IMG/VR virus record: IMGVR_UViG_3300042350_005912
Coordinates: 1 to 31,742 of that record
Source: a virus
Reading direction: 5' to 3' (one strand)
Length of the DNA stretch: 31,742 bases
A model generated the notes under the pieces. The model had not been told where the DNA came from and made no database searches. It saw only the letters and a list, made by a program, of their open reading frames with translations. Both the position numbers and the translations under genes were made by a program. Each line of letters opens with the position of its first letter. Position 1 is the stretch's first letter. This document shows, piece after piece, positions 1-26,847 of this stretch.

Positions 1-777
1 GACGGCCAGCATAGGCTTTCTGCGGTGGTAAGGACCGGGATTCCTCAGCGGTTCATGGTTCACTTTGACGGGGATCGAAGCCACTTTGCTGTGATTGACC
101 GGGGCAGGGTCCGCAATCCTGTCCAGTTAGCGGCCATGGCTGGCTGTAAATACTGCGCCAGTAACCATGTCTCAGCGGCTAATTCCCTGCTTTGGAACCC
201 GGCCAGCCCCATCACCATTATCCGGGGTGGTAACTGGTCTGGGGAGGAGATGGGCGACGTGCTTCATTACTTTGAGCCCGAGATAGCGGTGGTTTTTCCT
301 GCGGGCCTCCCTGGGGGAAGTCACTTTAGGCATGGGGCGCTCCGGGGTGCCTTACTGAGGAGTGCCATTGCCTACCCCAACGACCACCAGAAAATCCACG
401 ATTTTCTAGGGATTCTAACCTCAGGTAACTCCAACCCTGACTACAGCCACGACCTTAACAATATGGTCCTGAGCTTCCACACTAAGTACCTAACCCTCAA
501 GGGTTTGCAGAGTGGAGGAACCCATAAAACCTATGAGATTAGGCGTTGGGTCTGGAGTCAGGCCCTGGATTCTGTCCAGCGGTTTATCCGTAACAAACCC
601 AGGAAGGCCTTAATGCGCATGGACCGGCTCCCGACGGAGCATCAGACCCCGATCTGGCTGGATAATAAGCCCCCGCAAATGCTATTTAAGCCCTTTGTCC
701 AAAGCTTCTTTCGGAGTACGCCCAACCCTGTCTTTAACGGGGTTCCTATTCGTCTTTTACCCCCGCAGATCCAATGA
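1..777 (+). CDS. DGQHR/ParB-like phage protein, 5' end outside window
   Basis: The frame is open from base 1 and its first residues read DGQHRLSAVVRTGIP, followed by FAVIDRGRVRNPVQLAAMAG. This matches the hallmark of ParB-fold phage and plasmid proteins (DGQHRL, then a 'D.G..R...D.LA..G' element), so the true start lies upstream and the GTG at 25 is internal. About 258 residues are visible. The remainder is an alpha-helical tail with no motif I recognise. ParB-fold proteins bind DNA, hydrolyse CTP or act as nucleases; which applies here cannot be read. It is followed by a gene starting in a 4-nt ATGA overlap and then the terminase genes, suggesting one + strand operon. Family call moderately sure; function unknown. 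Confidence 0.7.
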   Translation, partial: DGQHRLSAVVRTGIPQRFMVHFDGDRSHFAVIDRGRVRNPVQLAAMAGCKYCASNHVSAANSLLWNPASPITIIRGGNWSGEEMGDVLHYFEPEIAVVFPAGLPGGSHFRHGALRGALLRSAIAYPNDHQKIHDFLGILTSGNSNPDYSHDLNNMVLSFHTKYLTLKGLQSGGTHKTYEIRRWVWSQALDSVQRFIRNKPRKALMRMDRLPTEHQTPIWLDNKPPQMLFKPFVQSFFRSTPNPVFNGVPIRLLPPQIQ

Positions 778-962
778 CTTTACTCAGCCCTGAAGCAGAA
801 CCAACCCGGGAGGAAATCCTGGTCCACCTCCTGGCGGCTGTAACGTTATGGCAGAGGATCATCCTTGCTGAGTTCGAGAGCCGGGGTCTGCCCTCGGACT
901 CCCTCAGCAACTTTACCCAAGACCTGGCCGATGTAGTGATCAACCTGGGCCGGAGGGAGTAG
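774..962 (+). CDS. Small hypothetical protein (62 aa)
   Basis: The ATG overlaps the TGA of the DGQHR-like gene (ATGA), so translation is probably coupled. The product is acidic and helical (REEILVHLLAAVTLWQRIIL, then a Leu/Asp-rich second helix) with no cysteines, signal peptide or recognised motif. It sits between a ParB-fold gene and the small-terminase candidate, the place where phages often carry small packaging or regulatory accessory proteins, but nothing in the sequence proves such a role. The overlap and position in a compact operon are the main support for it being real. Confidence 0.6.
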   Translation: MTLLSPEAEPTREEILVHLLAAVTLWQRIILAEFESRGLPSDSLSNFTQDLADVVINLGRRE

Positions 963-1003
963 GGGCGTTGGGAATCCTGGGTTTATAGCCTTTGAGTCTA
1001 TCT

Positions 1004-1540
1004 ATGGCAGCGCCCAAGCGAACCCCAGCCCAGCGAGAGCGAGACCGCGAACATGTGGCCAACCTTTACCTCAAGGGTTGGTCACAGTCTGAAATTGCCA
1101 ACTACCTGGAGGTATCCCAGCCTTTAATCTCCAAAGAGCTCAAGGCGATCAAAGCTAAGTGGCACTCCGAGCAACTGGAGCAGTATGAGTTTTATATTGC
1201 CCAGGAACTAGACCGGCTTCGGTTAATTGAGAAGGAAGCGTGGGAGGCCTGGGAGCGGAGTAAGCAAACCAAAGAGCAGACCCTGAGCGAAAAGCTACGG
1301 TCGGCCTCGCCGGATGACCTGGACCTGGAGACTGGAGCGGCGAAGCTAAAAATCCAACGGCGCACCATAGACCAGGTCGGCGATCCTAAATTCCTAGAAC
1401 AACTCCTCAAGGTCCACCAGGCCCGGGCCAAGTTACTGAACCTCGGCGATACCTCCACCGCCAAACCCCAGGGCGATACCTTGGCGGTTAGCTCCACCCA
1501 GCTCGCCGTCCTTGCTGAGTACCTATCCTCCAATCCGTAA
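1004..1540 (+). CDS. Putative terminase small subunit (HTH DNA-binding)
   Basis: The ATG at 1004 (MAAPKRTPAQRERDRE) is preferred over the in-frame TTG at 992. Residues about 16-50 form a helix-turn-helix (VANLYLKGWSQSEIANYLEV, then SQPLISKELKAIK) of the type used by small terminases to recognise packaging sites. A long charged, probably coiled-coil stretch follows (QEL.RL..IEKEAWEAWERSKQTKEQ), and the C-terminal part includes LLKVHQARAKLLNL. The gene lies 14 nt upstream of the large terminase, the classic TerS-TerL order. It could instead be a generic HTH regulator; adjacency to TerL makes TerS the better guess. Its stop codon lies inside a one-mismatch copy of the TCCGC-N4-GCGGA palindrome. 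Confidence 0.7.
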   Translation: MAAPKRTPAQRERDREHVANLYLKGWSQSEIANYLEVSQPLISKELKAIKAKWHSEQLEQYEFYIAQELDRLRLIEKEAWEAWERSKQTKEQTLSEKLRSASPDDLDLETGAAKLKIQRRTIDQVGDPKFLEQLLKVHQARAKLLNLGDTSTAKPQGDTLAVSSTQLAVLAEYLSSNP

Positions 1541-1554
1541 CGGCGGAATCAACT

Positions 1555-3195
1555 ATGCCTAATCCCCACTCAAAACCTGTAGACCCCTCCAGCCTGGAAG
1601 CACTCCGGGAGTCCTTGCAACCCAGCAACCTAGCCAAGACCTTACTCGGTTATGCAATCATGGTTAACTCCGGCCTGGAGGAGGAAACCCAGCCCCCGGC
1701 CCCGCGCAAAGGCCAGCTACAGGCGCAGGCTTGGTCCCAGGGCATCTACGCCCCAGGCGATCACCATAAATACCTGGCCCAGCACCTGGAGGCCGTAGAA
1801 CGGGGCGAAATACGCAGGTTGATGGTGACCATGCCTCCCCAACATGGTAAGAGTACCCTGGCCTCCCAGTATTTCCCTAGCTGGTTCCTGGGCCGGAACC
1901 CGAGGAAGCGGGTTATGCTCTTAGGCCACTCTCAGAACCTGGTAGAAGGCTTCGGGGAGAAGATCCGAAGTCATATCCAGTCCCCCAACTACGGCCTATT
2001 ATTTCCTGGAGTTACCCTTAGCCCCACGACCAAGGCCAAGGGTAATTTCCAAGTTTGTATCGGAGGAAGCCCTGCCGGGGAGTTCAACGCTTTCGGGGTC
2101 GGCGGTGGTGCCACCGGTCGAGGCGGGGAATTAATCATCATTGATGACTTGATCAAGAACCGCGAACAAGCCGACTCCCCCACCTACCAAGAAAAGCTGC
2201 GGGAGTGGGTAAGGTCGGTAGCCCTGACCCGGCAGGGTAAAGATGCCGCTATTGTGATGGTCATGACCCGCTGGAGCGTCAAAGACATTGCCGCCTGGAT
2301 GCTCACCGAACTGGCCCATGAGAACTGGGTAAATGTCACTCTACCCGCCATCGCGGAACCAACCGAGGAAAAGCCGGACCCCGTAGGCCGAGCGCCTGGA
2401 GCTGCCCTTTGGCCCGAACGGTACTCTACCAAGCAACTCCTCCAGACCAAGGCCACCATGGGCGAAGCCGATTGGCTTAGTCTGTACCAGCAAAATCCTG
2501 GCGCGGATGCCTCGGTGGTCTTTACCCCGGCCCAGTTCAAGATTTACGCCGGTGCGCCCCCGGTACTGCCGGAGGACTTGGCCCTATCGGTTCAGTCCTG
2601 GGATTTGTCCTTTGGGGCCAACAATGCCACCAGCTCCTGGGTAGTTGGGCAAGTCTGGTGCCCGGTGAGAAACCAAGCCATAATCGGCGGGTGGGTGTAT
2701 TACCTGCTCTACCAATACCGGGCTCAGCTTGGTTTCACCGATACCCGGGACGCGATCCGGGAGGTATCCAAGCTCTACCCCCGCAGTAAGGTACTGATCG
2801 AAAATAAGGCCAACGGCCCGGGAGTGATCGACGCCCTGACGGAGATGCGCCTCGACAACCCCATCCAAGCCATAGAACCCGGTAGTTCCTCCAAGGCCGA
2901 TAGAGCTTACCAGGTTCTCCCCCTGGTGGAGCGGGGTGCGGTATGGTTGCCGGACCCGGAAGCAGAGCCCGGGGTTAAACCGCTATGGCGGGAACTAGAA
3001 AGCTTCCCCCAGGGCATTACCGATGATTGTGTCGATGCCATGACCCAGGCCTTGAACTACCTCAAGGCCCGACTCAAGATCACAATGGGCATTTCTGTGG
3101 CCAACGGCTACGACACCCAGCAACGCAAGAACTTGCATGGTAGGTTGGCAAGTTACAGCCCTGGGGCCAATATGGTGACCTGGAGCGGGTTCTAG
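1555..3195 (+). CDS. terL: Phage terminase large subunit
   Basis: This is the packaging motor that pumps phage DNA into the prohead and cuts it. The ATPase domain has Walker A MPPQHGKST at residues about 93-101, a Walker B-like LIIIDDLI near 193-200, and a conserved TRW motif after VMVM. The C-terminal RNase H-fold nuclease shows SWDLSFG (metal-binding Asp near 349), LIENKANGPGVIDAL near 415-430, and DDCVDAMTQAL near 490-500. Length (546 aa) is normal for TerL, so the gene appears complete and functional. It follows the small-subunit candidate by 14 nt and converges with the next minus-strand gene with only 2 nt between stops. The large subunit is the firmest evidence that the element is phage-derived. 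Confidence 0.95.
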   Translation: MPNPHSKPVDPSSLEALRESLQPSNLAKTLLGYAIMVNSGLEEETQPPAPRKGQLQAQAWSQGIYAPGDHHKYLAQHLEAVERGEIRRLMVTMPPQHGKSTLASQYFPSWFLGRNPRKRVMLLGHSQNLVEGFGEKIRSHIQSPNYGLLFPGVTLSPTTKAKGNFQVCIGGSPAGEFNAFGVGGGATGRGGELIIIDDLIKNREQADSPTYQEKLREWVRSVALTRQGKDAAIVMVMTRWSVKDIAAWMLTELAHENWVNVTLPAIAEPTEEKPDPVGRAPGAALWPERYSTKQLLQTKATMGEADWLSLYQQNPGADASVVFTPAQFKIYAGAPPVLPEDLALSVQSWDLSFGANNATSSWVVGQVWCPVRNQAIIGGWVYYLLYQYRAQLGFTDTRDAIREVSKLYPRSKVLIENKANGPGVIDALTEMRLDNPIQAIEPGSSSKADRAYQVLPLVERGAVWLPDPEAEPGVKPLWRELESFPQGITDDCVDAMTQALNYLKARLKITMGISVANGYDTQQRKNLHGRLASYSPGANMVTWSGF

Positions 3196-3197
3196 GG

Positions 3198-3602
3198 TTA
3201 GGCCTGGGGGTTGAGCTTTGCTGCGGCCTCGGCCTTCTTCCTGGCCCGGTATGCTTTGGCGTAAGCGGCCTTAGCTGCCTTACGCTCCGGGGAATCCTCG
3301 TAGGCCTTGATCTGGTCCTGGCGAGTGGCCCGGTAGGTGCGGGATACCTCGACCTTGGCGGCTCTACGCTCCGGAGAGGTCTCATAGGCCTCTACCTTGT
3401 CCGGGTGAAGTTGCCGGTACTTGTCCACGGCCCGGGCCACGGCTTTCTTACCCTTGACACTCGCCCGGTACTTCTCCAGGGATGCCTTACCCTCTGGAGT
3501 TTGATAGTAAGCCTTCATGTACTCCCGTCGCCGTTGGCGGCGGAGGTCTTGGTCGCTGCCTTGGTTGCTGGCCGGATCCGTCATGCGCAATAGAAAAAAC
3601 AT
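3198..3602 (-). CDS. Basic repeat protein, unknown function
   Basis: The ATG at 3602 has GGGGAG 8 nt upstream, which decides it over longer in-frame starts; an internal ATG 18 nt later is an alternative. The 134-aa product is very rich in Lys, Arg, Ala and Tyr and is built from a diverged repeat: YMKAYYQTPEGKAS, DKVEAYETSPERRAAK and DQIKAYEDSPERKAAK, each followed by a basic stretch with a Tyr-Arg pair. The pattern suggests a nucleic-acid-binding protein made of short repeats, an inference from composition only. It is convergent with terL. One copy of the long three-copy repeat element lies about 220 nt upstream on the same strand. Confidence 0.6.
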   Translation of the reverse strand: MFFLLRMTDPASNQGSDQDLRRQRRREYMKAYYQTPEGKASLEKYRASVKGKKAVARAVDKYRQLHPDKVEAYETSPERRAAKVEVSRTYRATRQDQIKAYEDSPERKAAKAAYAKAYRARKKAEAAAKLNPQA

Positions 3603-3659
3603 GGTAGTCTCCCCACAGAATAATAAAAATCGCTCAGAATTACTACCTTCGATCCGCAA

Positions 3660-3943
3660 TAACGGAATAAATGCTCAGATAAAGGCCGAAGTAATAACCC
3701 GTATACGTCATACATAAATCTAGCATACCCACCTCGAAAAGCACAGGGGTAACCCGGCATTTTTCTGGTTAACGTTGGGGGTATTTTGGGCTATTTCGAG
3801 GTTGAAAAAAGGGCTAAAATCGGGGTAGCTCGAAAATGGCTGAAACCCTTGCCCTGTAAGGCGTAGACCATTATTCCTAGTCCTTATATATATTTAGAAG
3901 GGGAAGTAATAAATAATCTGGAGCCTCCCTACCCACCAACCTG
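3660..3943. other. Intergenic region between two minus-strand genes
   Basis: No convincing gene is seen here. The region contains element R copy 1 (3822-3908), a one-mismatch TCCGC-N4-GCGGA palindrome (3653-3666 at its edge) and a stray CGTATACGT at about 3699 that resembles the spacer of the six-copy promoter but lacks its TATATT and TTTAC boxes. It is more AT-rich than its neighbours. Confidence 0.6.
3822..3908 (-). repeat. Long element R, copy 1
   Basis: Read on the minus strand this holds TCTAAATATATATAAGGAC, then TAGGAATAAT, then GCCTTACAGGGCAAGGG and a CTACCCC tail. It matches copy 3 (26408-26490, plus strand) over about 80 nt and copy 2 (20980-21060, minus strand) over the core. It points towards the basic-repeat gene starting at 3602. 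Role unknown: promoter/leader, centromere or recombination site are all possible. Confidence 0.8.
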
Positions 3944-4474
3944 CTACTTGAAAATAGCCTCCCGAAGAACCTCGACATTTTTTTCCGAGTCCTCCAGCGA
4001 CTCCGAGCGGAGCCGAACTGCGTGGGGGAAGTCCTTGAGGATGGCCTTGATTTTAGCGGCCTGTCCCCGAAGCCATCTACGGGTTTGTTTATCGCCCCGC
4101 TGCTGGCGACGGTAGTCCAGGGTAGCCTCGGAGGTCTCAAGGGCGTAGACGAGGGTGCTGGGTACCGTAGAGGCGATCTTGACTTTGCAGTAGGTGAGGA
4201 AGCTGATATTAAACAAGGGAGCCCCCTCGAATAGCACTACCAGGTCTCGGTATTCCGCCATGGCGGGAAGAACCTGGAGGAATAACTGAGCATGGGCCTG
4301 GTACCTAACCCCTCCACCGGCCCCTAGGACCATCACCTGGGCCTCTGGGTACCATGGCCCCGACAAAGTGCTCCAGTGCCAGTCTGAGGCCGGTCCTAGG
4401 GTCTCTACTAAGCTTTTAAGTAGGGTACTCTTGCCGGTGGCAGACTCCCCGCCGATACCAATGATCTTTCTCAC
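3944..4474 (-). CDS. P-loop NTPase, kinase-like
   Basis: The GTG at 4474 is preceded by GGAGGAGG. The protein starts MRKIIGIGGESATGKSTLLK, a textbook Walker A (GESATGKS) at residues about 8-16, as in nucleoside, polynucleotide or other small-molecule kinases. A hydrophobic strand ending in acid, LVVLFEGAPLF, near residues 80-90 may supply the Walker B position. An RRQQRGDKQTRRWLRGQ stretch near 125-140 resembles a kinase lid with arginines. Length (176 aa) fits single-domain phage kinases. The substrate cannot be named from sequence. The gene appears monocistronic or is co-transcribed with the basic repeat protein. Confidence 0.7.
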   Translation of the reverse strand: MRKIIGIGGESATGKSTLLKSLVETLGPASDWHWSTLSGPWYPEAQVMVLGAGGGVRYQAHAQLFLQVLPAMAEYRDLVVLFEGAPLFNISFLTYCKVKIASTVPSTLVYALETSEATLDYRRQQRGDKQTRRWLRGQAAKIKAILKDFPHAVRLRSESLEDSEKNVEVLREAIFK

Positions 4475-4567
4475 CCCAGGGCCTCCTCCGGTACTTCCTA
4501 ACTACCAGACTTCCCTAGTTACAAACCTAGTTACAAACTGAATCCAAAAATTTCTAAGTTTACCCCC

Positions 4568-4608
4568 TTTACAAGCATAGGCGTATACGTTATATTAAAA
4601 GGGTAAAC
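4568..4608 (+). promoter_or_regulatory. Six-copy promoter, copy P1
   Basis: TTTACA (4568-4573), 17-nt spacer containing CGTATACG, TATATT (4591-4596), then AAAAGGGTAAAC. Both boxes and the spacing fit a sigma-70-type promoter. A TTTACCC just upstream and GGGTAAA just downstream form an inverted pair around the promoter, a possible operator. Drives the gene at 4625. Confidence 0.85.
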
Positions 4609-4624
4609 AGATTTGAGGTTTTGC

Positions 4625-4933
4625 ATGGAATTTTACTTGGTGGACGTTAAGAGTATCTCTGTACCAGAGACCCTTTCCAAGGTAGCCTCAGGTAGGGTAG
4701 AACCCTTGGCTCAGAGCATTGTTGCTAGTGGAGGGCTTACAGCTCCTCTACTACTAAGGCAAGTAGGGCCAGAGGCTTATGAACTACTCTCAGAACCCCT
4801 GCATTACTATGCTGCTTGCAGAGCCCGGGAAATAAACCCTAGGCAGTTTGAGACTGTTAATGCCTTTGTAGTAACCCCAGAGCGCCAGGAAGCCGCCATC
4901 TACCAAGTAGCTGAGCAGTACCGGACCTGCTAG
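4625..4933 (+). CDS. Small ParB N-terminal-fold protein
   Basis: The start is the ATG at 4625 with GAGG 7 nt upstream. The 102-aa product reads VKSISVPETLSKVASGRVEP, LAQSIVASGGLTAPLLLR, then YELLSEPLHYYAACRA. This follows the ParB/Srx N-terminal pattern: 'I.VP......R...LA.SI...G.L.P..VR....YEL..G..R..AA', in which the usual nucleotide-contacting GHRR position reads EPLHYYAA. The loss of arginines suggests a degenerate or repurposed fold. It has its own promoter (P1) and terminator (4956-4985), an isolated expression cassette. A role in partition or as an anti-host protein is possible but not shown. Confidence 0.75.
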   Translation: MEFYLVDVKSISVPETLSKVASGRVEPLAQSIVASGGLTAPLLLRQVGPEAYELLSEPLHYYAACRAREINPRQFETVNAFVVTPERQEAAIYQVAEQYRTC

Positions 4934-4955
4934 GTCACCTAGGTTCTCCACCCCA

Positions 4956-4985
4956 CCCCTCCCCCTGGAGGGGTTCTTTGTTTGA
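4956..4985 (+). terminator. Rho-independent terminator of cassette 1
   Basis: CCCCTCC (4956-4962), 4-nt loop, GGAGGGG (4967-4973), followed by TTCTTTGTTTG. Nearly identical to the terminator at 5372-5400. Confidence 0.8.
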
Positions 4986-4989
4986 GTGT

Positions 4990-5070
4990 TAGGTACTTCC
5001 CTAGTTACAAACTGGATCCAAAAATTCCTAGGTTTACCCCCTTTACAAACATAGTCGTATACGTTATATT
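4990..5070 (+). repeat. Duplicated promoter-upstream segment
   Basis: The stretch starting about 4996 (TTCCCTAGTTACAAACTGGA) and ending in TATATT at 5070 repeats 4512-4596 almost base for base. It shows that the region upstream of P1 was duplicated together with the promoter. Confidence 0.8.
5042..5070 (+). promoter_or_regulatory. Six-copy promoter, copy P2 (variant)
   Basis: TTTACA (5042-5047), 17-nt spacer with CGTATACG, TATATT (5065-5070). Unlike the other five copies it is not followed by the GGGTAAAC tail; a structured leader replaces it, so regulation after initiation may differ. Confidence 0.8.
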
Positions 5071-5076
5071 AAATTC

Positions 5077-5180
5077 ATGGGAGGCGGATAACAGCCGAGT
5101 CGGGGAACCGACAGTGTGATGAGCGCCAGGACAAGCCAACCTCCTCCCACCCACCAACCACTTACACCGAGGACCAACCG
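5077..5180 (+). promoter_or_regulatory. Structured leader with 4-codon mini-ORF
   Basis: Downstream of P2 there is ATG-GGA-GGC-GGA-TAA (5077-5091), then a small hairpin GTCGG-GGAA-CCGAC (about 5099-5112) with a GNRA-type loop. A C-rich unstructured stretch reaches to the start at 5181. It does not match a riboswitch that I know. It may be a leader peptide or RNA regulator of the next gene. Confidence 0.4.
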
Positions 5181-18840: not shown

Positions 18841-21800
18841 CTACTTATCGGCCCAGGAACTTACCACCAGCTTGCCCCAGAACTCCTCCCGACCGTCCGG
18901 GCATCCATTACGGAGTACTCCGGCAAAGGCATCACCCACGGTATCGCGGACCTGGGTAATGGCCTCCTCCGCCATCGCGGAATCAACCAAGACATCAACC
19001 TCGTCATGCACGTAGTTGATGATTTCAAGGCCCCACTGAGGATTAGCCTTGGCCAACTGGGAGACCGCCAGGACTGCCCGCTTCATAGCGGTAGCTTCGA
19101 TCCGGCTCCAGGTGGAGGCGATGGCCTCGTTGCGGGCAACCTCGAATTTGCCGTAATCATCCGGCATCATGGGCAGGGTAAGGCGGAAGCCGTCGGAGGT
19201 AGCATTGACCCCAAACAACCGACCCCCCAGGGCGATAGGCTTGGCGTTGATCCGGTTCACCCGCTTCGTGATAAAGCCTTCGATACCGCTAAATAGATTC
19301 CGGCAACCGGCAAGGGCCAGCTTGCAGTCATCCAGGCTTGGGGCCACCCCGGTCTCCTCCAGGATGGAGCCTTGGACCCGCTTCGGTCCTCCACCATTGA
19401 GCCAGGAATAAAAGGTGGTCTTGGCGATGTCCCGAAGGTTCTTGGCCTTGGCCTGGTCGGGGTTGCTCTTATCCTTGCGGGCCTCATTGATATATTCCCA
19501 GCTCCAGGGAAGGCCCTGGGCCTGGGCGATAAAGGCCGCAACCTGGCTGTGCGTGTCGATGCTAGGGTCTTGGAAAGCGGCAATGGCTAGGCTATCGTTA
19601 GCCTCGCTCGCAGCAATGCGGGCATGGGCCGCAGCCAGGTCGATCACCGCCATGACCTTACCCTCAGTCGGCCGGACAAAGCTCCTCACCGGAGTTAGGT
19701 CGTAGTCGCTCAGGACGGCGCGAGGGGCATTGACGACCTTCTGTAAGTTGTTGAATACGTTGCTAACCCTAGTTCCTCCAGAGCTAGAGCGCCCAGTACC
19801 GGTTAGGGATGTATAGATAGTCCGGATCCGACCTTCGCCCAAAGATTCGCTAGACCGTTGGAAATACTTAAGATCGTTGCGGAGCACGTTCAACGCTCGA
19901 AGCTGCTGGATTTGTAAGACCCCTGGCTTATCCTTGTTCGCCTGCAAGACCTCAGCATTAGAGCTTTCCAGGCCTAAGGCCTGAGTGACCTGAGGGTTAG
20001 ACGTGGGGCTAACCGAGGGATAGAGCTTGTACCACGCCGCCTCTACTTCGGAATAAAGGGCCTCAATCTTGGCTAGTTCGGTGGCAACCCCAACGGCATC
20101 CACCGGCAACCCAGCCCGTTCAATCTCAATAAAGACCGGGATAATTTCATTCTCCAGCTTCCAGCCAGCGGTAAGGCCTGGGTGGTGCAATGGGTGGGCG
20201 GTGTCTAGGTACCGGTTATAGATGGCCTCGTACAAAGGAATCAGAATGGCGGCATCCTTGGCGGCATAATCAAGCATCGCCTGCTCCAGAGGTCGGCCCC
20301 AGTCCAGTTTCTGCTGGCTCTTGTCTACGGCCTCGCCGAGGTACTCGGCTGCAACACAGGCCAGGGAGTAACCCCCAGGTAAAACCGGAGGCCGCTTGGG
20401 GGCGCGAGGATCGTCGGGGTCGTGGCCGTAGTCGCCATAAAACACCTTGGCCCCAATCATGGTATCTACGACCCGGGTAGCCTGGAGGCCGTACTGATAG
20501 CGGAGGAACCGCAGATCAAAGCTTAAATTGTGCCCCAGAATTACCGTATCCGGGTTCTCCAGGATGGCCTTGAGGGTAGCAAAGAATGGGGCCTGGGCCT
20601 TGGCAATGGCCTCCCGGTCATCGTAGCGGCCCCCCAGATCTACGACGTAGGTGCCGGAGTCGGTGGCCAGTTGAATTAGCCGTACCCGACCGGTGATCGG
20701 GTCTAGGGCAGTACCCTTAGGCCCTGGGGCGAAGGTTTCAATGTCCAGGCCCACCCGTGGGGCCAGCTCCAGGGCCGTTAGGTAGGCGGAGTAACTAGCA
20801 TCCTCAGGGTTGAGCATGGTATACAGCTCACTCTTAGCGGCGACCGGAGTCGTTGGAGCACTTAGCAGGGTGCCGAGGGCTAACTGATCGGGGGAGGAAT
20901 ACTGGGTTTTGGTCTTGGCCATGAGGTTCTCCGTTGAGGGTTCTGGGGTAATTTTTGGGGTCAAAATTTGGGGTAAAACGGCCTTACCCGAAACAGGGCT
21001 CAAACCCTTGTCCTGTATGGGTTTGGCGATTATTCCTAGTCCATATATATATTTATAAGCACTGGGAATAATTTTTAGAGCCTCGATCAACTCCACCAAG
21101 ACCTGAGGCAGACTACCTTGGCTTGCCATCTTGCGCAGGTCTTTGAGGATGTTGCTGACCCGGCTCTGGGATACCTTGCTTAGTTCCGCGATAGCGGATT
21201 GAGTCAGGGTAAGACCCTGGCTCGCCAGTGTCTGGATAGCAGCCAGGATTTTCTGCGCGGTGGCCTGGGAGCGAGGGGCAGCATCGGGGCTCAGCTCAGC
21301 GGCCTGGACAACCTTGATCGGATAGGGGACCGGGTAGCAGGCGGTGTGGTAATGATGCAGCTCCTCCCCAGGCCGTAGGTTGGCCCGGAGCCGTCCGTTG
21401 GTTTGAATCTGGTTGGTAACTACCTTCTGCCGGATATAGGCTCTAAGGCCCTCATCCGCCGATTCTAGGCCCACCCAGCACAGGGCCATACCTTCGGGTA
21501 GCCCTTCGGCTTCCTGCCGGTAGAAGACCGGCACAACCCCCGGTAAGGGTACCAGGCCGGTTAGGGTGGTGTACTCAGCGGTCATCGCGGCGAGGTTGGG
21601 TACCTGGACCCCGTCGGAGACCAAGCTCGCGGCCTTCTCCGCCACGTTGGAGCCGATGGTATCAACCCCGTGGGTAAGTTGAATATCTGCGGCCTGGTAG
21701 ACCTCAGGATTTTTCTGGTAGGAGCTCTTGTAGGCAGCAACGGCCATGGGGCCTTGGTGCCTAACCTTGATCGCATCCAAGCAAGCCTTGAGCCTGCGGT

Positions 21801-24237
21801 TCTGATCGGCGGAGCGCTCCCGGTTCATCCGGCCCAGGTCGGTGATTACGGTGTGAGTAACCTTGGCCCCCACAGGCGGGGCCATCTCGACTACCAGGAT
21901 TTCCTCCTCAGGAACCCCCAGGTACCGGGCCAGGTCGTGGGAGTTGGCCGTAGCCGAGAGCATGATCCGGGTATCGAACTGAGTGAATCGGGTAGCCAGA
22001 TCATTCCAGGCGCTAATCACCAACTCCCCGAGGCCCGTTAGTCGAATGTCGCCCTTGGCTTTACCCTGGAGGATGTCCAGGGCCAGCAATACCGCATTGG
22101 CGGGACGAAGCTTGTCCAGGTTCTGGCTCAGGCGCTCCCGGTTAATTTCAAGGCCGCTCAGCCCGTCGGAAATCACCCCGTCGTAGAGGTTGGCAAAGAC
22201 TTCGGCATTGGTATCAGCCAGTCCTTGGCGCAGCGCATCGGTATCAACCACCGGCGCATCCTCAGGAACCAGAGCCAGAATATCGGCGTAACCAATCCCG
22301 TACCGGCCTAGGGTCTCAGGGGCCTTCATCCAGCCATCGCGCAGGGTGGTGTAGAAGAACGCCTCCCATTCCTTAGGCAAGCCCCCGACCGCCCCCTGGA
22401 GGTCGCACAGGGCACTATCAAAGGCCTCCCGGCTAAAGGTGCGTTCCTGAGTAAAGGCCCATTGATCAACCTCGTCTGCAATAGCGACGGTATTGGCGTA
22501 GGAAAATCCGGGCTCCCCATGGGAGGGGCCGGGGCCGGGTTCGGGGAGCTGGAGGGGGTGAATCCTAAAGGCCTGCTCCTGGAGTACCTTCCGCCGACCG
22601 ATCACCGCAGGGCACTTGCGCTCCTGCGGGCACCCCGCACAGGGCATACTCACCTCCGCCCCGGACGAAGTCGTTACCGTGGGGATTGTCACCCCCAGGT
22701 GCTGCGCCCGGTGGAATACCTCAGGGAATAAGCACGTTGGTTTGGTGTTAGCTTCCTCAGGCTTCTGTGCCAGTTTGAACCGGATCCGTCCATCGGGGAG
22801 CTGGTCCTTGATTAGGCCATGATTCTTACTCGGCACCGCATCTAGGGTAAGGAGCTTTGGATCGGGAGGGTTGTACTTTTCGGTAGCAACAAAGGCAACG
22901 GCCTTGCCGTGGAATACGGCCTCGGTAGTGGTCGGGGGTACCTCCAACCATGCCGCCGTCTGAGGGATTTCCCCGATCAGCATGTTGGTAACCTGGGTGG
23001 TCTTCCCTGCCCCAGTCCCGGAGGAGACCAGGATATTCTTTATCCCTACCTCCATCGCGGTATGGAGGATCGGCACCAAGTTCTCCCGCTCGGTGTAGGC
23101 GATTTTTACCCCAGGTATAGTTAGCATCTCCCGGGTCAATGCCGGGGAAGTTACCAACTCCTCCCAGGGCCATGCCTCCCGAACATCGTTGGGGTTTACC
23201 AGGGTTCCGGTAAAGCCAAAGTCCTCCGGCACAGGACTAAACCCCTGAGGAACTTTCTTGAGGAGGTAATCCAGGCCCAGCATCCGAGGCCCAGGCTTCG
23301 GCCCCCACACCGCCTCAAACCCTTGCTCGGTATACCGCCCCGAGGTCTGCGCCCAGGCCCTGGCTACTTCCTTGGGAACACCCGCGTTATAGGCCGCAAA
23401 CATAATGTTCCGGTAGGTGTACCAATCCTCCACAACCTCGGGGATATTAGGAATCAGGTTCAGCACCTTCGAGGCGGTATCAGCATCCACGCCCACCAGC
23501 AAACTCGCTTCACTGGCCTTAAGCGTCAGCTCCTCTAGCCTTGCCGCCGCCTCCAGCACCAGGTCCATCGGCACCGGTGAGGCCTCGGGATTGTATACAA
23601 AGAAATCCGCCTCGGTGTTGCCGTAGAAGGCATTGGTAATGCTCACCGTGGCCCGGTCGGTGCCCGGGATTTCCTGAAGAACCCGGAGAATTACCTGCTT
23701 AGCCAGGGCCGGATCTTCGACTACCACCGGCAACGGGATAATCAACCGGAACTTATCATGGATCCCATTCGGGGCGGCGGGCTCCGGCCTGCCGTGGCTC
23801 GGGGTGGTATAGCCCAGCACACAATGGGCCTTAACCAAGGGATGGGCCTGGGCCTCCTCCAGGGTGAACTCCCCGGAGTAGGCGTGGTTACCCTCCCAGA
23901 TTACTTCGTTGTCGATGTCGGCAATGACCCACGCCAAACACTCAAAGGCCCCGTCACTCCTCCAGGCCTTATTAAGCAGGGACATGTTAAGACCCCAACC
24001 CTTAGAGATAATCCCCCGGACCTCCTCCAGAGTCACCCCAACCTTGGGCCGCCAACCTTTGGCGACTTTCTTCTTGGCCTCGCCCTGGGGTTTGTTGCGC
24101 AGCCCAGGGTTATAGCTGAAATTAAACCCCCAATTTACCCCCGGTATATTGACAGGGCGAGTACCCGTGGGTAAGATAAAAGCATCTTGATCCGCAACTG
24201 CGGAATTAAGTGATATACTACTTACGAAGTCAGTCAT
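18841..24237 (-). CDS. Primase-helicase-DNA polymerase A fusion protein
   Basis: One frame of 1798 aa with AAGGAG before the ATG at 24237. An N-terminal archaeo-eukaryotic primase-like domain (CLAWVIADIDNEV; HDKFRLIIPLP; ITNAFYGNTEADFF) is followed by a PriCT-like helical domain. A helicase/ATPase has Walker A SSGTGAGKTTQV near residue 405, a cysteine cluster CAGCPQERKCP near 535, a Walker B-like IADEVDQ, LSATAN and an arginine segment QTNGRLR. A helix-turn-helix (TQSAIAELSKVSQSRVSNIL) lies near 1010. From about 1106 a family A polymerase follows: 3'-5' exonuclease (GLDIETFA; GHNLSFDLRFL; YAAKDAA), then motif A VIDLAAAHARI, motif B RDIAKTTFYSWLNGG and motif C YVHDEVD. All active-site residues seem present. 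It is the element's replicase. Confidence 0.85.
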   Translation of the reverse strand: MTDFVSSISLNSAVADQDAFILPTGTRPVNIPGVNWGFNFSYNPGLRNKPQGEAKKKVAKGWRPKVGVTLEEVRGIISKGWGLNMSLLNKAWRSDGAFECLAWVIADIDNEVIWEGNHAYSGEFTLEEAQAHPLVKAHCVLGYTTPSHGRPEPAAPNGIHDKFRLIIPLPVVVEDPALAKQVILRVLQEIPGTDRATVSITNAFYGNTEADFFVYNPEASPVPMDLVLEAAARLEELTLKASEASLLVGVDADTASKVLNLIPNIPEVVEDWYTYRNIMFAAYNAGVPKEVARAWAQTSGRYTEQGFEAVWGPKPGPRMLGLDYLLKKVPQGFSPVPEDFGFTGTLVNPNDVREAWPWEELVTSPALTREMLTIPGVKIAYTERENLVPILHTAMEVGIKNILVSSGTGAGKTTQVTNMLIGEIPQTAAWLEVPPTTTEAVFHGKAVAFVATEKYNPPDPKLLTLDAVPSKNHGLIKDQLPDGRIRFKLAQKPEEANTKPTCLFPEVFHRAQHLGVTIPTVTTSSGAEVSMPCAGCPQERKCPAVIGRRKVLQEQAFRIHPLQLPEPGPGPSHGEPGFSYANTVAIADEVDQWAFTQERTFSREAFDSALCDLQGAVGGLPKEWEAFFYTTLRDGWMKAPETLGRYGIGYADILALVPEDAPVVDTDALRQGLADTNAEVFANLYDGVISDGLSGLEINRERLSQNLDKLRPANAVLLALDILQGKAKGDIRLTGLGELVISAWNDLATRFTQFDTRIMLSATANSHDLARYLGVPEEEILVVEMAPPVGAKVTHTVITDLGRMNRERSADQNRRLKACLDAIKVRHQGPMAVAAYKSSYQKNPEVYQAADIQLTHGVDTIGSNVAEKAASLVSDGVQVPNLAAMTAEYTTLTGLVPLPGVVPVFYRQEAEGLPEGMALCWVGLESADEGLRAYIRQKVVTNQIQTNGRLRANLRPGEELHHYHTACYPVPYPIKVVQAAELSPDAAPRSQATAQKILAAIQTLASQGLTLTQSAIAELSKVSQSRVSNILKDLRKMASQGSLPQVLVELIEALKIIPSAYKYIYGLGIIAKPIQDKGLSPVSGKAVLPQILTPKITPEPSTENLMAKTKTQYSSPDQLALGTLLSAPTTPVAAKSELYTMLNPEDASYSAYLTALELAPRVGLDIETFAPGPKGTALDPITGRVRLIQLATDSGTYVVDLGGRYDDREAIAKAQAPFFATLKAILENPDTVILGHNLSFDLRFLRYQYGLQATRVVDTMIGAKVFYGDYGHDPDDPRAPKRPPVLPGGYSLACVAAEYLGEAVDKSQQKLDWGRPLEQAMLDYAAKDAAILIPLYEAIYNRYLDTAHPLHHPGLTAGWKLENEIIPVFIEIERAGLPVDAVGVATELAKIEALYSEVEAAWYKLYPSVSPTSNPQVTQALGLESSNAEVLQANKDKPGVLQIQQLRALNVLRNDLKYFQRSSESLGEGRIRTIYTSLTGTGRSSSGGTRVSNVFNNLQKVVNAPRAVLSDYDLTPVRSFVRPTEGKVMAVIDLAAAHARIAASEANDSLAIAAFQDPSIDTHSQVAAFIAQAQGLPWSWEYINEARKDKSNPDQAKAKNLRDIAKTTFYSWLNGGGPKRVQGSILEETGVAPSLDDCKLALAGCRNLFSGIEGFITKRVNRINAKPIALGGRLFGVNATSDGFRLTLPMMPDDYGKFEVARNEAIASTWSRIEATAMKRAVLAVSQLAKANPQWGLEIINYVHDEVDVLVDSAMAEEAITQVRDTVGDAFAGVLRNGCPDGREEFWGKLVVSSWADK
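18968..18981. repeat. TCCGC-N4-GCGGA palindrome inside the polymerase gene
   Basis: TCCGC-CATC-GCGGA (18968-18981), read through in frame near the C-terminus of the polymerase. Confidence 0.85.
20920..20934 (-). promoter_or_regulatory. Internal translation start for the polymerase part
   Basis: Codon 1106 is ATG (20922-20920) preceded by ACGGAGAACCTC, a good ribosome-binding site 7 nt away. From here the protein would be MAKTKTQYSSPDQ..., 693 aa, the normal size of an exonuclease-polymerase. It may allow separate production of the polymerase. Confidence 0.6.
20980..21060 (-). repeat. Long element R, copy 2 (in frame inside the fusion gene)
   Basis: On the minus strand TATAAATATATATATGGAC, TAGGAATAAT, then CCCATACAGGACAAGGG. 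It is the same element as copies 1 and 3. It encodes YKYIYGLGIIAKPIQDKGL in the linker between the helicase-HTH part and the polymerase, about 60-140 nt before the internal start. Confidence 0.75.
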
Positions 24238-25757: not shown

Positions 25758-26396
25758 TTGAGTAAGGGGTTAGTGATTTCGGTAATTAACGGCAAGGGAG
25801 GGAGCGGCAAGACCACGACGGCTCTGGCCCTGGCTGCTTGCCTGGGGGAACGTCTGGGGAAGGTGCTGCTAGTCGATGCCGACCCCCAGGGGAGTGCGGC
25901 GTGGGTGGCTCAAGGGATGGCGGAGACCGGCCTCTTTGATCTGGCCCAAGAAACTAATCCCCAGGTCTTGGCGCAGCTCCGCCAGGTGGCAAGTTACTCC
26001 GCCCTGGTCGTGGATACGCCCCCGGCCCTGGCCGATAGCACCTTGACGCTGGTTGCCAAACTAAGTGATTTCCTGGTACTGCCTGCGAGCCCTTCGCCGT
26101 TGGACCTGCGGGAACTGACCCGGACGATCCAAGGCTTAATTCTCCCCACCCAGGTTCCTTACCGGGTGCTGCTGTGCCGGGTGGATACGCGACGGCGGAT
26201 CGAAGCTATCCAGATTCAGTCTCAGCTCCGTAGTTCGGGAGTGCGGATCTTTGATACGGTGATAAGGTCTCGGGTAGCCTTGGAGCGATTCATCGTTGAG
26301 GGGGTGCCCTTGACTCAGTACCCAGGGGCTCGACCTTCGGCGGAGGAATACCGCAAAGTACTCGACCAGATCCAGGCCGATCTTACCCCCGGATAA
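25758..26396 (+). CDS. parA: ParA-type partition ATPase
   Basis: The 212-aa protein reads VISVINGKGGSGKTTTALAL with the deviant Walker A GKGGSGKTT near residue 13, VLLVDADPQGSAAW (motif A'), SALVVDTPPALADS (Walker B) and LVLPASPSPLDLRE. It is a short ParA without an N-terminal HTH, as in type Ib partition systems, where a small RHH partner binds the centromere. It uses a TTG start at 25758 with GGAAAGG upstream; a GTG at 25773 is the alternative. Two candidate partners flank it, the RHH protein at 25331 and the protein at 26500. It shows that the element, or part of its life cycle, is maintained as a plasmid. Confidence 0.9.
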   Translation: MSKGLVISVINGKGGSGKTTTALALAACLGERLGKVLLVDADPQGSAAWVAQGMAETGLFDLAQETNPQVLAQLRQVASYSALVVDTPPALADSTLTLVAKLSDFLVLPASPSPLDLRELTRTIQGLILPTQVPYRVLLCRVDTRRRIEAIQIQSQLRSSGVRIFDTVIRSRVALERFIVEGVPLTQYPGARPSAEEYRKVLDQIQADLTPG

Positions 26397-26407
26397 TTAT
26401 TAGTTTC

Positions 26408-26490
26408 CCTTCTAAATATATATAAGGACTAGGAATAATCCTCAACGCCTTACAGGGCAAGGGTTACAGCTGATTTTTGAACTACCCCAG
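26408..26490 (+). repeat. Long element R, copy 3
   Basis: TCTAAATATATATAAGGAC, TAGGAATAAT, GCCTTACAGGGCAAGGG, ending in ACTACCCC. It is the inverted counterpart of copy 1 at 3822-3908. It occupies the whole gap between parA and its downstream partner, 10 nt before the 26500 start. Confidence 0.85.
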
Positions 26491-26499
26491 GGAGGGGCC

Positions 26500-26847
26500 A
26501 TGGCGACTCGAAAAATTACCGATATTCTGGCCCAGGAACTAACCCCGGAGGAGCCCCCTGTTACCCCCGAGACTACTCCCAACGTAGAAGCCCCGGACGA
26601 TGCTCCACCGCCAGGAACACCTAAGTATTTAACCCTAGAGCGCAAAGATACTCGCCTCCGCCCAGGCCAACTCGAGGAACTCGGTAAGATTACCCGCAAG
26701 CTCAACCGCCGTCGCAAAGGTGCCGGGGAGCGCATCACCGACAACACCTTGATCCGCCTCGGGGTGGACCTGGTCCTAGCCCGGGCCGGGGACTTGGCTG
26801 GCTGCACAGAGGAGGAACTTCGTCAGAGCTTGGGGCTGGAGGACTAG
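26500..26847 (+). CDS. ParA-linked small partner protein
   Basis: The ATG at 26500 has GGGAGGGG just upstream. The 115-aa product has a Pro/Glu-rich disordered N-terminus (about residues 15-45), a basic middle (LERKDTRLRPGQLEELGKIT, RKLNRRRKGAGERITDNTLI) and a helix RLGVDLVLARAGDL. The C-terminal 'R.T.N..IR.GVDLVL' resembles the RHH helix pair of plasmid partition partners. It is 104 nt from parA with element R in between, so it is the best candidate ParB-like centromere-binding protein. The disordered N-terminus would suit contact with ParA. Confidence 0.7.
   Translation: MATRKITDILAQELTPEEPPVTPETTPNVEAPDDAPPPGTPKYLTLERKDTRLRPGQLEELGKITRKLNRRRKGAGERITDNTLIRLGVDLVLARAGDLAGCTEEELRQSLGLED

Follow-up and report, generated by a model that had tools for sequence, protein, structure and literature searches.

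Origins of replication that lie within or directly beside the gene of their own initiator have been described in several systems. In phage lambda, the origin is located inside the O initiator gene and carries four 19-bp iterons (PMC3985674). The stem-loop origin of pRN1, whose Rep contains an SF3 helicase, is about 100 bp in size and found downstream of the rep stop codon (PMC4234260), and the origins of PICIs and SaPIs lie immediately 3′ of rep and outside the gene, as two iteron sets around an AT-rich region (PMC6092414). Among cyanobacterial plasmids, CyRepA1 and CyRepA2 have been reported as Reps (PMC10079941, PMC10899382).

Here we analysed a virus fragment of 31,742 nt (referred to as the window) in which a repeated element, R, occurs inside a gene that encodes a Rep protein fused to a family A DNA polymerase (PolA). 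On balance, we favour the reading that the helix-turn-helix (HTH) of Rep recognises R, a DNA site with two-fold symmetry and a candidate part of an origin that is embedded in the initiator gene. Because origins inside the initiator gene (lambda O) or at its 3′ end (pRN1, PICIs) are established, this proposal is mechanistically ordinary. As with lambda O, the predicted initiator sites would be located within the initiator's own coding sequence, but the family of the window has a single long dyad, a primase-helicase type of protein and arms that vary widely between members. The family shares with pRN1 a multidomain primase-helicase-DNA-binding Rep and a structured site near the 3′ end of which the structure rather than the sequence is kept, although the dyad is located before the rep stop codon and the helicase is, by its predicted model, XPD/DinG-like (SF2) instead of SF3. 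PICIs and SaPIs similarly combine a primase and an initiator, sometimes fused, with an origin that follows at once, but paired iteron sets flanking an AT-rich region were not found here. The CyRepA proteins are likewise large cyanobacterial Reps with primase-like and DEXD helicase parts, yet they carry DUF3854 where the family of the window carries PriCT-2, and an assignment of the window Rep to CyRepA1 (slr7037 of pSYSA) was rejected as there was no significant similarity. In the literature searched, we found no description of this PriCT-2-type Rep family or of its in-frame, arm-variable dyad.

A Rep-PolA fusion in a phage with plasmid-like maintenance genes

The window encodes a terminase, ParA, helicases and a Rep-like protein, suggesting a phage with plasmid-like maintenance genes (Table 1), and relatives of its Rep and PolA occur in cyanobacterial plasmids, phages and genomes. 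The 115-aa ORF downstream of parA probably encodes the partner of ParA. Contig L005 is 99.98% identical to window positions 1-5163 and extends the same phage upstream. Translations of this extension (L005 2681-6693) revealed QueC-, QueE-, GTP cyclohydrolase-like and DpdA-like genes, a set that suggests 7-deazaguanine DNA modification. The window further contains a second repeated element, promoter-like in appearance (TTTACCC...GTATACG-TATATT...GGGTAAAC) and located upstream of genes on both strands, and frequent TCCGCNNNNGCGGA palindromes that are both intergenic and intragenic, the codons of the Rep HTH included.

Table 1. Coordinates of the features of the window that are discussed in the text.
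Feature	Position	Strand	Basis
Rep-PolA fusion ORF, 1798 aa	18841..24237	-	ORF and domain matches
Rep part, homologous to cyanobacterial plasmid 'PriCT-2 domain-containing' proteins	21073..24237	-	
Rep HTH, residues about 980-1036	21130..21300	-	weak matches
PolA part, 3′-5′ exonuclease and family A polymerase, from internal ATG	18841..20922	-	domain matches
Shine-Dalgarno-like GGAG, 6 nt before internal PolA ATG	20929..20932	-	
R copy 1 (c1), intergenic	3824..3921 (dyad 3870-3913)	-	sequence match and profile
R copy 2 (c2) dyad, ATTATTCCCAGT-20 nt-ACTAGGAATAAT, in frame, directly after Rep HTH	21029..21072	-	
R copy 2 3′ block with TACAGGACAAGGGTT, common to intergenic copies, absent from plasmid relatives	20985..21028	-	
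Base reading TAT in c2 and TAA in c1, c3 and c4; dyad position 8 from centre	21043	-	
R copy 3 (c3), directly after parA stop	26389..26483 (dyad 26396-26439)	+	sequence match and profile
parA	25758..26396	+	family match
115-aa ORF downstream of parA and R copy 3	26500..26847	+	without family match
Promoter-like repeated element	4546, 5020, 5612, 6637	+	
Promoter-like repeated element	16026, 17234	-	
TCCGCNNNNGCGGA palindromes, examples	4252, 10243, 11664, 12521, 13392, 21180, 25731		

Residues 1-1055 of the fusion ORF share 22-30% identity with large PriCT-2 proteins of cyanobacterial plasmids, and homologues of this Rep part were found on 63 plasmids and in 39 of 386 cyanobacterial genomes. 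The PriCT-2 domain itself scored above cut-off in a Calothrix relative. The predicted model of the helicase core resembled XPD and DinG (E 1e-10; TM about 0.5 by target length), and its conserved cysteines, placed as at the Fe-S cluster of the XPD/DinG group, may form such a cluster. The C-terminal HTH yielded weak matches to MarR_2 (residues 1004-1036) and to dimeric HTH proteins such as HipB. Judged by homology of primase, helicase and HTH, the protein is a member of a PriCT-2 / XPD-like helicase / HTH family of cyanobacterial plasmid Reps, and a variant one, as it is placed there on this homology and not on its C-terminal domain. Indeed, the usual C-terminal domain of about 70-108 aa after the dyad is missing from the window, where 728 aa of linker and PolA follow instead, the exonuclease match starting at residue 1153. 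The GGAG upstream of the internal PolA ATG makes a separate PolA product plausible.

No other Rep fused to PolA was seen among the relatives in the genome searches, in which the longest Rep frame was at most 1455 aa. A search for PolA at the Rep loci covered retrieved only L009, a different Rep plasmid that encodes PolA as a separate gene, and the viral contigs searched held no close relatives of Rep-PolA or PolA.

Element R is bipartite and repeated in the same orientation

Element R is a real repeat, above chance: copy 2 matched a copy at 3773-3900 (75% over 128 nt, E 9e-17) and, on the minus strand, one at 26409-26465 (86% over 57 nt, E 3e-14). An earlier note on this DNA had placed copy 2 in frame between the HTH and PolA, which the domain matches confirmed, and at 20980-21060, which was the right location but missed the outer left arm, as a four-copy profile extended the element to 20985-21077. 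The claim that it points at the internal PolA start from about 60 nt also held (63 nt from the profile edge to the ATG at 20922-20920). The other two copies were, as proposed, located in non-coding DNA upstream of genes, both in the same orientation and between co-directional genes (c1 between ORFs 3944-4474(-) and 3198-3583(-), and c3 after parA and before the ORF at 26500-26847). A fourth copy (c4), missed earlier, was found directly 3′ of a stop codon at L005 1854-1952. All four copies have the same orientation relative to transcription, and each starts where an upstream gene or gene part ends or no more than about 30 nt from that point.

The dispersal of these copies in a phage that has parA, with one copy between parA and the next gene, would fit parS-like partition sites for the small protein encoded after parA. 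We regard this as very unlikely, since in relatives the dyad belongs to rep and par-type genes differ among the plasmids.

Each copy consists of an AT-rich dyad (21029-21072 in c2) and a 3′ block, TACAGGRCAAGGGTT, which is present in all four copies at a fixed distance from the dyad and separated from it by a freely variable stretch. The dyads of c1, c3 and c4 have the centre and spacing of c2, with weaker outer pairing. A predicted half-site would comprise an outer arm of 8-9 bp and a CTAT-like inner arm, with a non-paired spacer of 2-3 bp in between, and about 12 bp would separate the inner arms of the two half-sites. The 3′ block had no counterpart after the dyads of the plasmid rep relatives examined. 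Among other viruses in IMG/VR, R was recovered only from a near-identical contig (two left-block patterns and one longer pattern); the 386 cyanobacterial genomes yielded just chance-like matches of 28-29 nt, and similarity of the junction DNA in plasmids was restricted to two short chance-like matches. The segment is conserved as DNA and not as protein, which supports this side of the earlier note, and the same element occurs in both coding and non-coding settings.

An in-frame dyad in cyanobacterial rep genes

Searching with the R profile revealed weak matches just downstream of the HTH codons in several plasmid rep genes, and most of these stretches contained an AT-rich inverted repeat within the reading frame (e.g. 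AAAGTTTACTTTTGTTAT-12-ATAACAAAAGTAAACTTT). In these relatives the dyad is located directly after the HTH and 70-108 codons before the stop codon (728 codons in the window), inside the rep frame, with no stop codon in it and a further coding domain behind it. Ranked against all other inverted repeats of the same gene, the dyad came first in 32 of 41 rep genes and within the top two in 38, and that of the window (score 11.5) was also the top one in its gene. When codons were shuffled synonymously, the dyad was equalled in 0 of 200 shuffles for 13 of 24 loci (a count that includes L013, which is the same locus as L014) and in 7 of 200 for the window. In rep genes fetched later as a fresh sample, 9 of 10 had the dyad, nearly all of them 68-85 codons before the stop codon. 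A weak, displaced or absent dyad was encountered at L032, L086, L093, L097 and L116. Taken over the genes compared, the dyad was thus shown to be real and, with few exceptions among the rep relatives examined, to lie in frame.

Each rep gene contains one dyad, and tandem iterons were not found. Locus L064 carries two complete tandem rep genes, each with a dyad of its own. In four Nostoc-type plasmids, the rep stop codon is followed at 0.5-2.9 kb by a further dyad in the same orientation, with 41-45 of 46 bp kept and, in most, more decayed flanks; these second dyads look like the best-kept parts of decayed duplicates of a rep 3′ end. Plasmids with a Rep of this family also often encode a site-specific integrase of 183-190 aa (L055, L057, L058, L059, L060 and L061).

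The dyad covaries as DNA and follows the adjacent HTH

At positions 14-21 from the dyad centre, 92% of the pairs in 31 distinct genes were Watson-Crick, versus 58% (maximum 68%) after exchanging right halves among genes, a shuffle in which the relatedness of the genes remains. Two observations do not rest on this shuffle alone: 3-4 different pair types occurred at each of these positions, and sliding the partner by 1-3 bases lowered pairing to 22-52% Watson-Crick. The non-Watson-Crick pairs displayed no wobble preference (26 G-T versus 25 A-C). Covariation of the arms, with G-T no commoner than A-C, argues for a DNA dyad rather than an RNA hairpin, and from these alignments the dyad is best described as covarying DNA.

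It is accordingly most improbable that R acts as an mRNA structure, be it a hairpin, terminator, attenuator or recoding signal. The c2 copy does have a strong RNA fold compared with shuffles (z -3.6), but the other three copies do not clearly exceed theirs (z -1.0, -0.1 and -1.8) and the c2 antisense strand folds even better (z -5.1). Moreover, R had no Rfam match at gathering score, and no tRNA was found.

With the helicase removed, half-site distance correlated with HTH distance (partial r 0.35, reached in 0 of 2000 permutations), a modest correlation drawn from related sequences, versus a partial r of 0.02 (p 0.40) with the domain encoded after the dyad. The comparison supports the reading that the half-sites follow the HTH and not the C-terminal domain, as they should if the site is bound by the adjacent HTH, and is indirect evidence for such binding.

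The same tracking counts against the dyad being the core site of a recombinase, for multimer resolution or cassette exchange, at which recombination would have put PolA in place of the Rep C-terminus and left the second copies in the Nostoc-type plasmids. Such a site would have two inverted arms flanking a short centre, as seen here; homology of the window Rep stops at the dyad, where R-type intergenic sequence starts; the similarity between copies in L078 begins close to the dyad; and 6 of the 8 plasmids fetched encode a small site-specific integrase. However, the 3′ end of rep would be lost by recombination between direct repeats at spacings of 0.9-3.3 kb, the second copies in L058 and L059 are flanked on both sides by rep-like sequence as decayed rep remnants would be, and there was no integrase among the window proteins scanned. 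We therefore consider a recombinase site unlikely.

The joint between Rep and PolA

The earlier note had interpreted the joint as a former intergenic leader with a regulatory role, situated between rep and polA and turned into coding sequence by the loss of a stop codon. The shared orientation of the four copies and their placement after gene ends, the ribosome-binding site of PolA, the TAA in the three non-coding copies and the low third-position GC of the linker (0.38 for codons 1056-1100 versus 0.69 for the whole gene) would all suit such a leader. The reading is nevertheless contradicted for the dyad, which in the relatives is in the rep frame with a coding domain after it, and no sigma-70-like promoter was detected on either strand in 20500-21600, within which the note had proposed to look for an internal promoter. 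We consequently deem the leader model as a whole quite unlikely. It may hold for 20923-21028, the stretch from the dyad to the PolA start, which might once have been a polA leader as it lacks a counterpart in the Rep relatives and contains the 3′ block of the intergenic copies.

Since the dyad of the relatives is in frame without a stop codon, the TAA that c1, c3 and c4 all have at the dyad centre in the frame of c2 more likely reflects a gain in these copies than a loss in c2. The dyad was thus most likely coding before the fusion, and not made so by stop-codon loss. Moreover, the c2 base at 21043 avoids TAA yet breaks a dyad pair that is Watson-Crick in 94% of genes, suggesting selection for an open frame through c2. 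Together with the tracking of the HTH, the coding dyad of the rep relatives indicates that the coding position came first, and the three intergenic copies look secondary. A role as Rep binding site fits R better than a leader role, and R is probably the place in the rep gene at which the Rep protein binds, not an upstream control region that has been lost.

A candidate initiator site within the initiator gene

We infer that a Rep dimer binds the dyad and that the site serves as an initiator assembly site or origin, or as a copy-control site. The Rep HTH would bind the dyad and Rep would assemble there, leading to the start of replication or to control of its own supply. The three intergenic R copies of the phage would then be extra Rep sites. 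In the phage, the C-terminal domain of Rep would have been swapped, directly after the dyad, for a leader-like stretch and PolA, resulting in an in-frame Rep-PolA protein in which PolA retains its own ribosome-binding site. The origin function of the dyad is the least certain step of this proposal, because GC skew agreed with it in only 1 of 6 complete plasmids (L056, with the minimum 51 bp away).

More tentatively, the HTH and its cognate dyad might form an inseparable specificity unit within the initiator gene, with the dyad also being a seam for exchange of the Rep C-terminus that allowed the phage to capture PolA and to place extra initiator sites at three intergenic positions; this wider version is possible, though doubtful.

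If true, binding of Rep to this dyad would provide a precise candidate initiator site for a cyanobacterial plasmid Rep family that is widespread and whose origin we did not find described in the literature searched. In addition, such binding would account for changes of initiator specificity that leave protein and site matched, and a phage initiator joined to its own polymerase would constitute an unusual replication machine.
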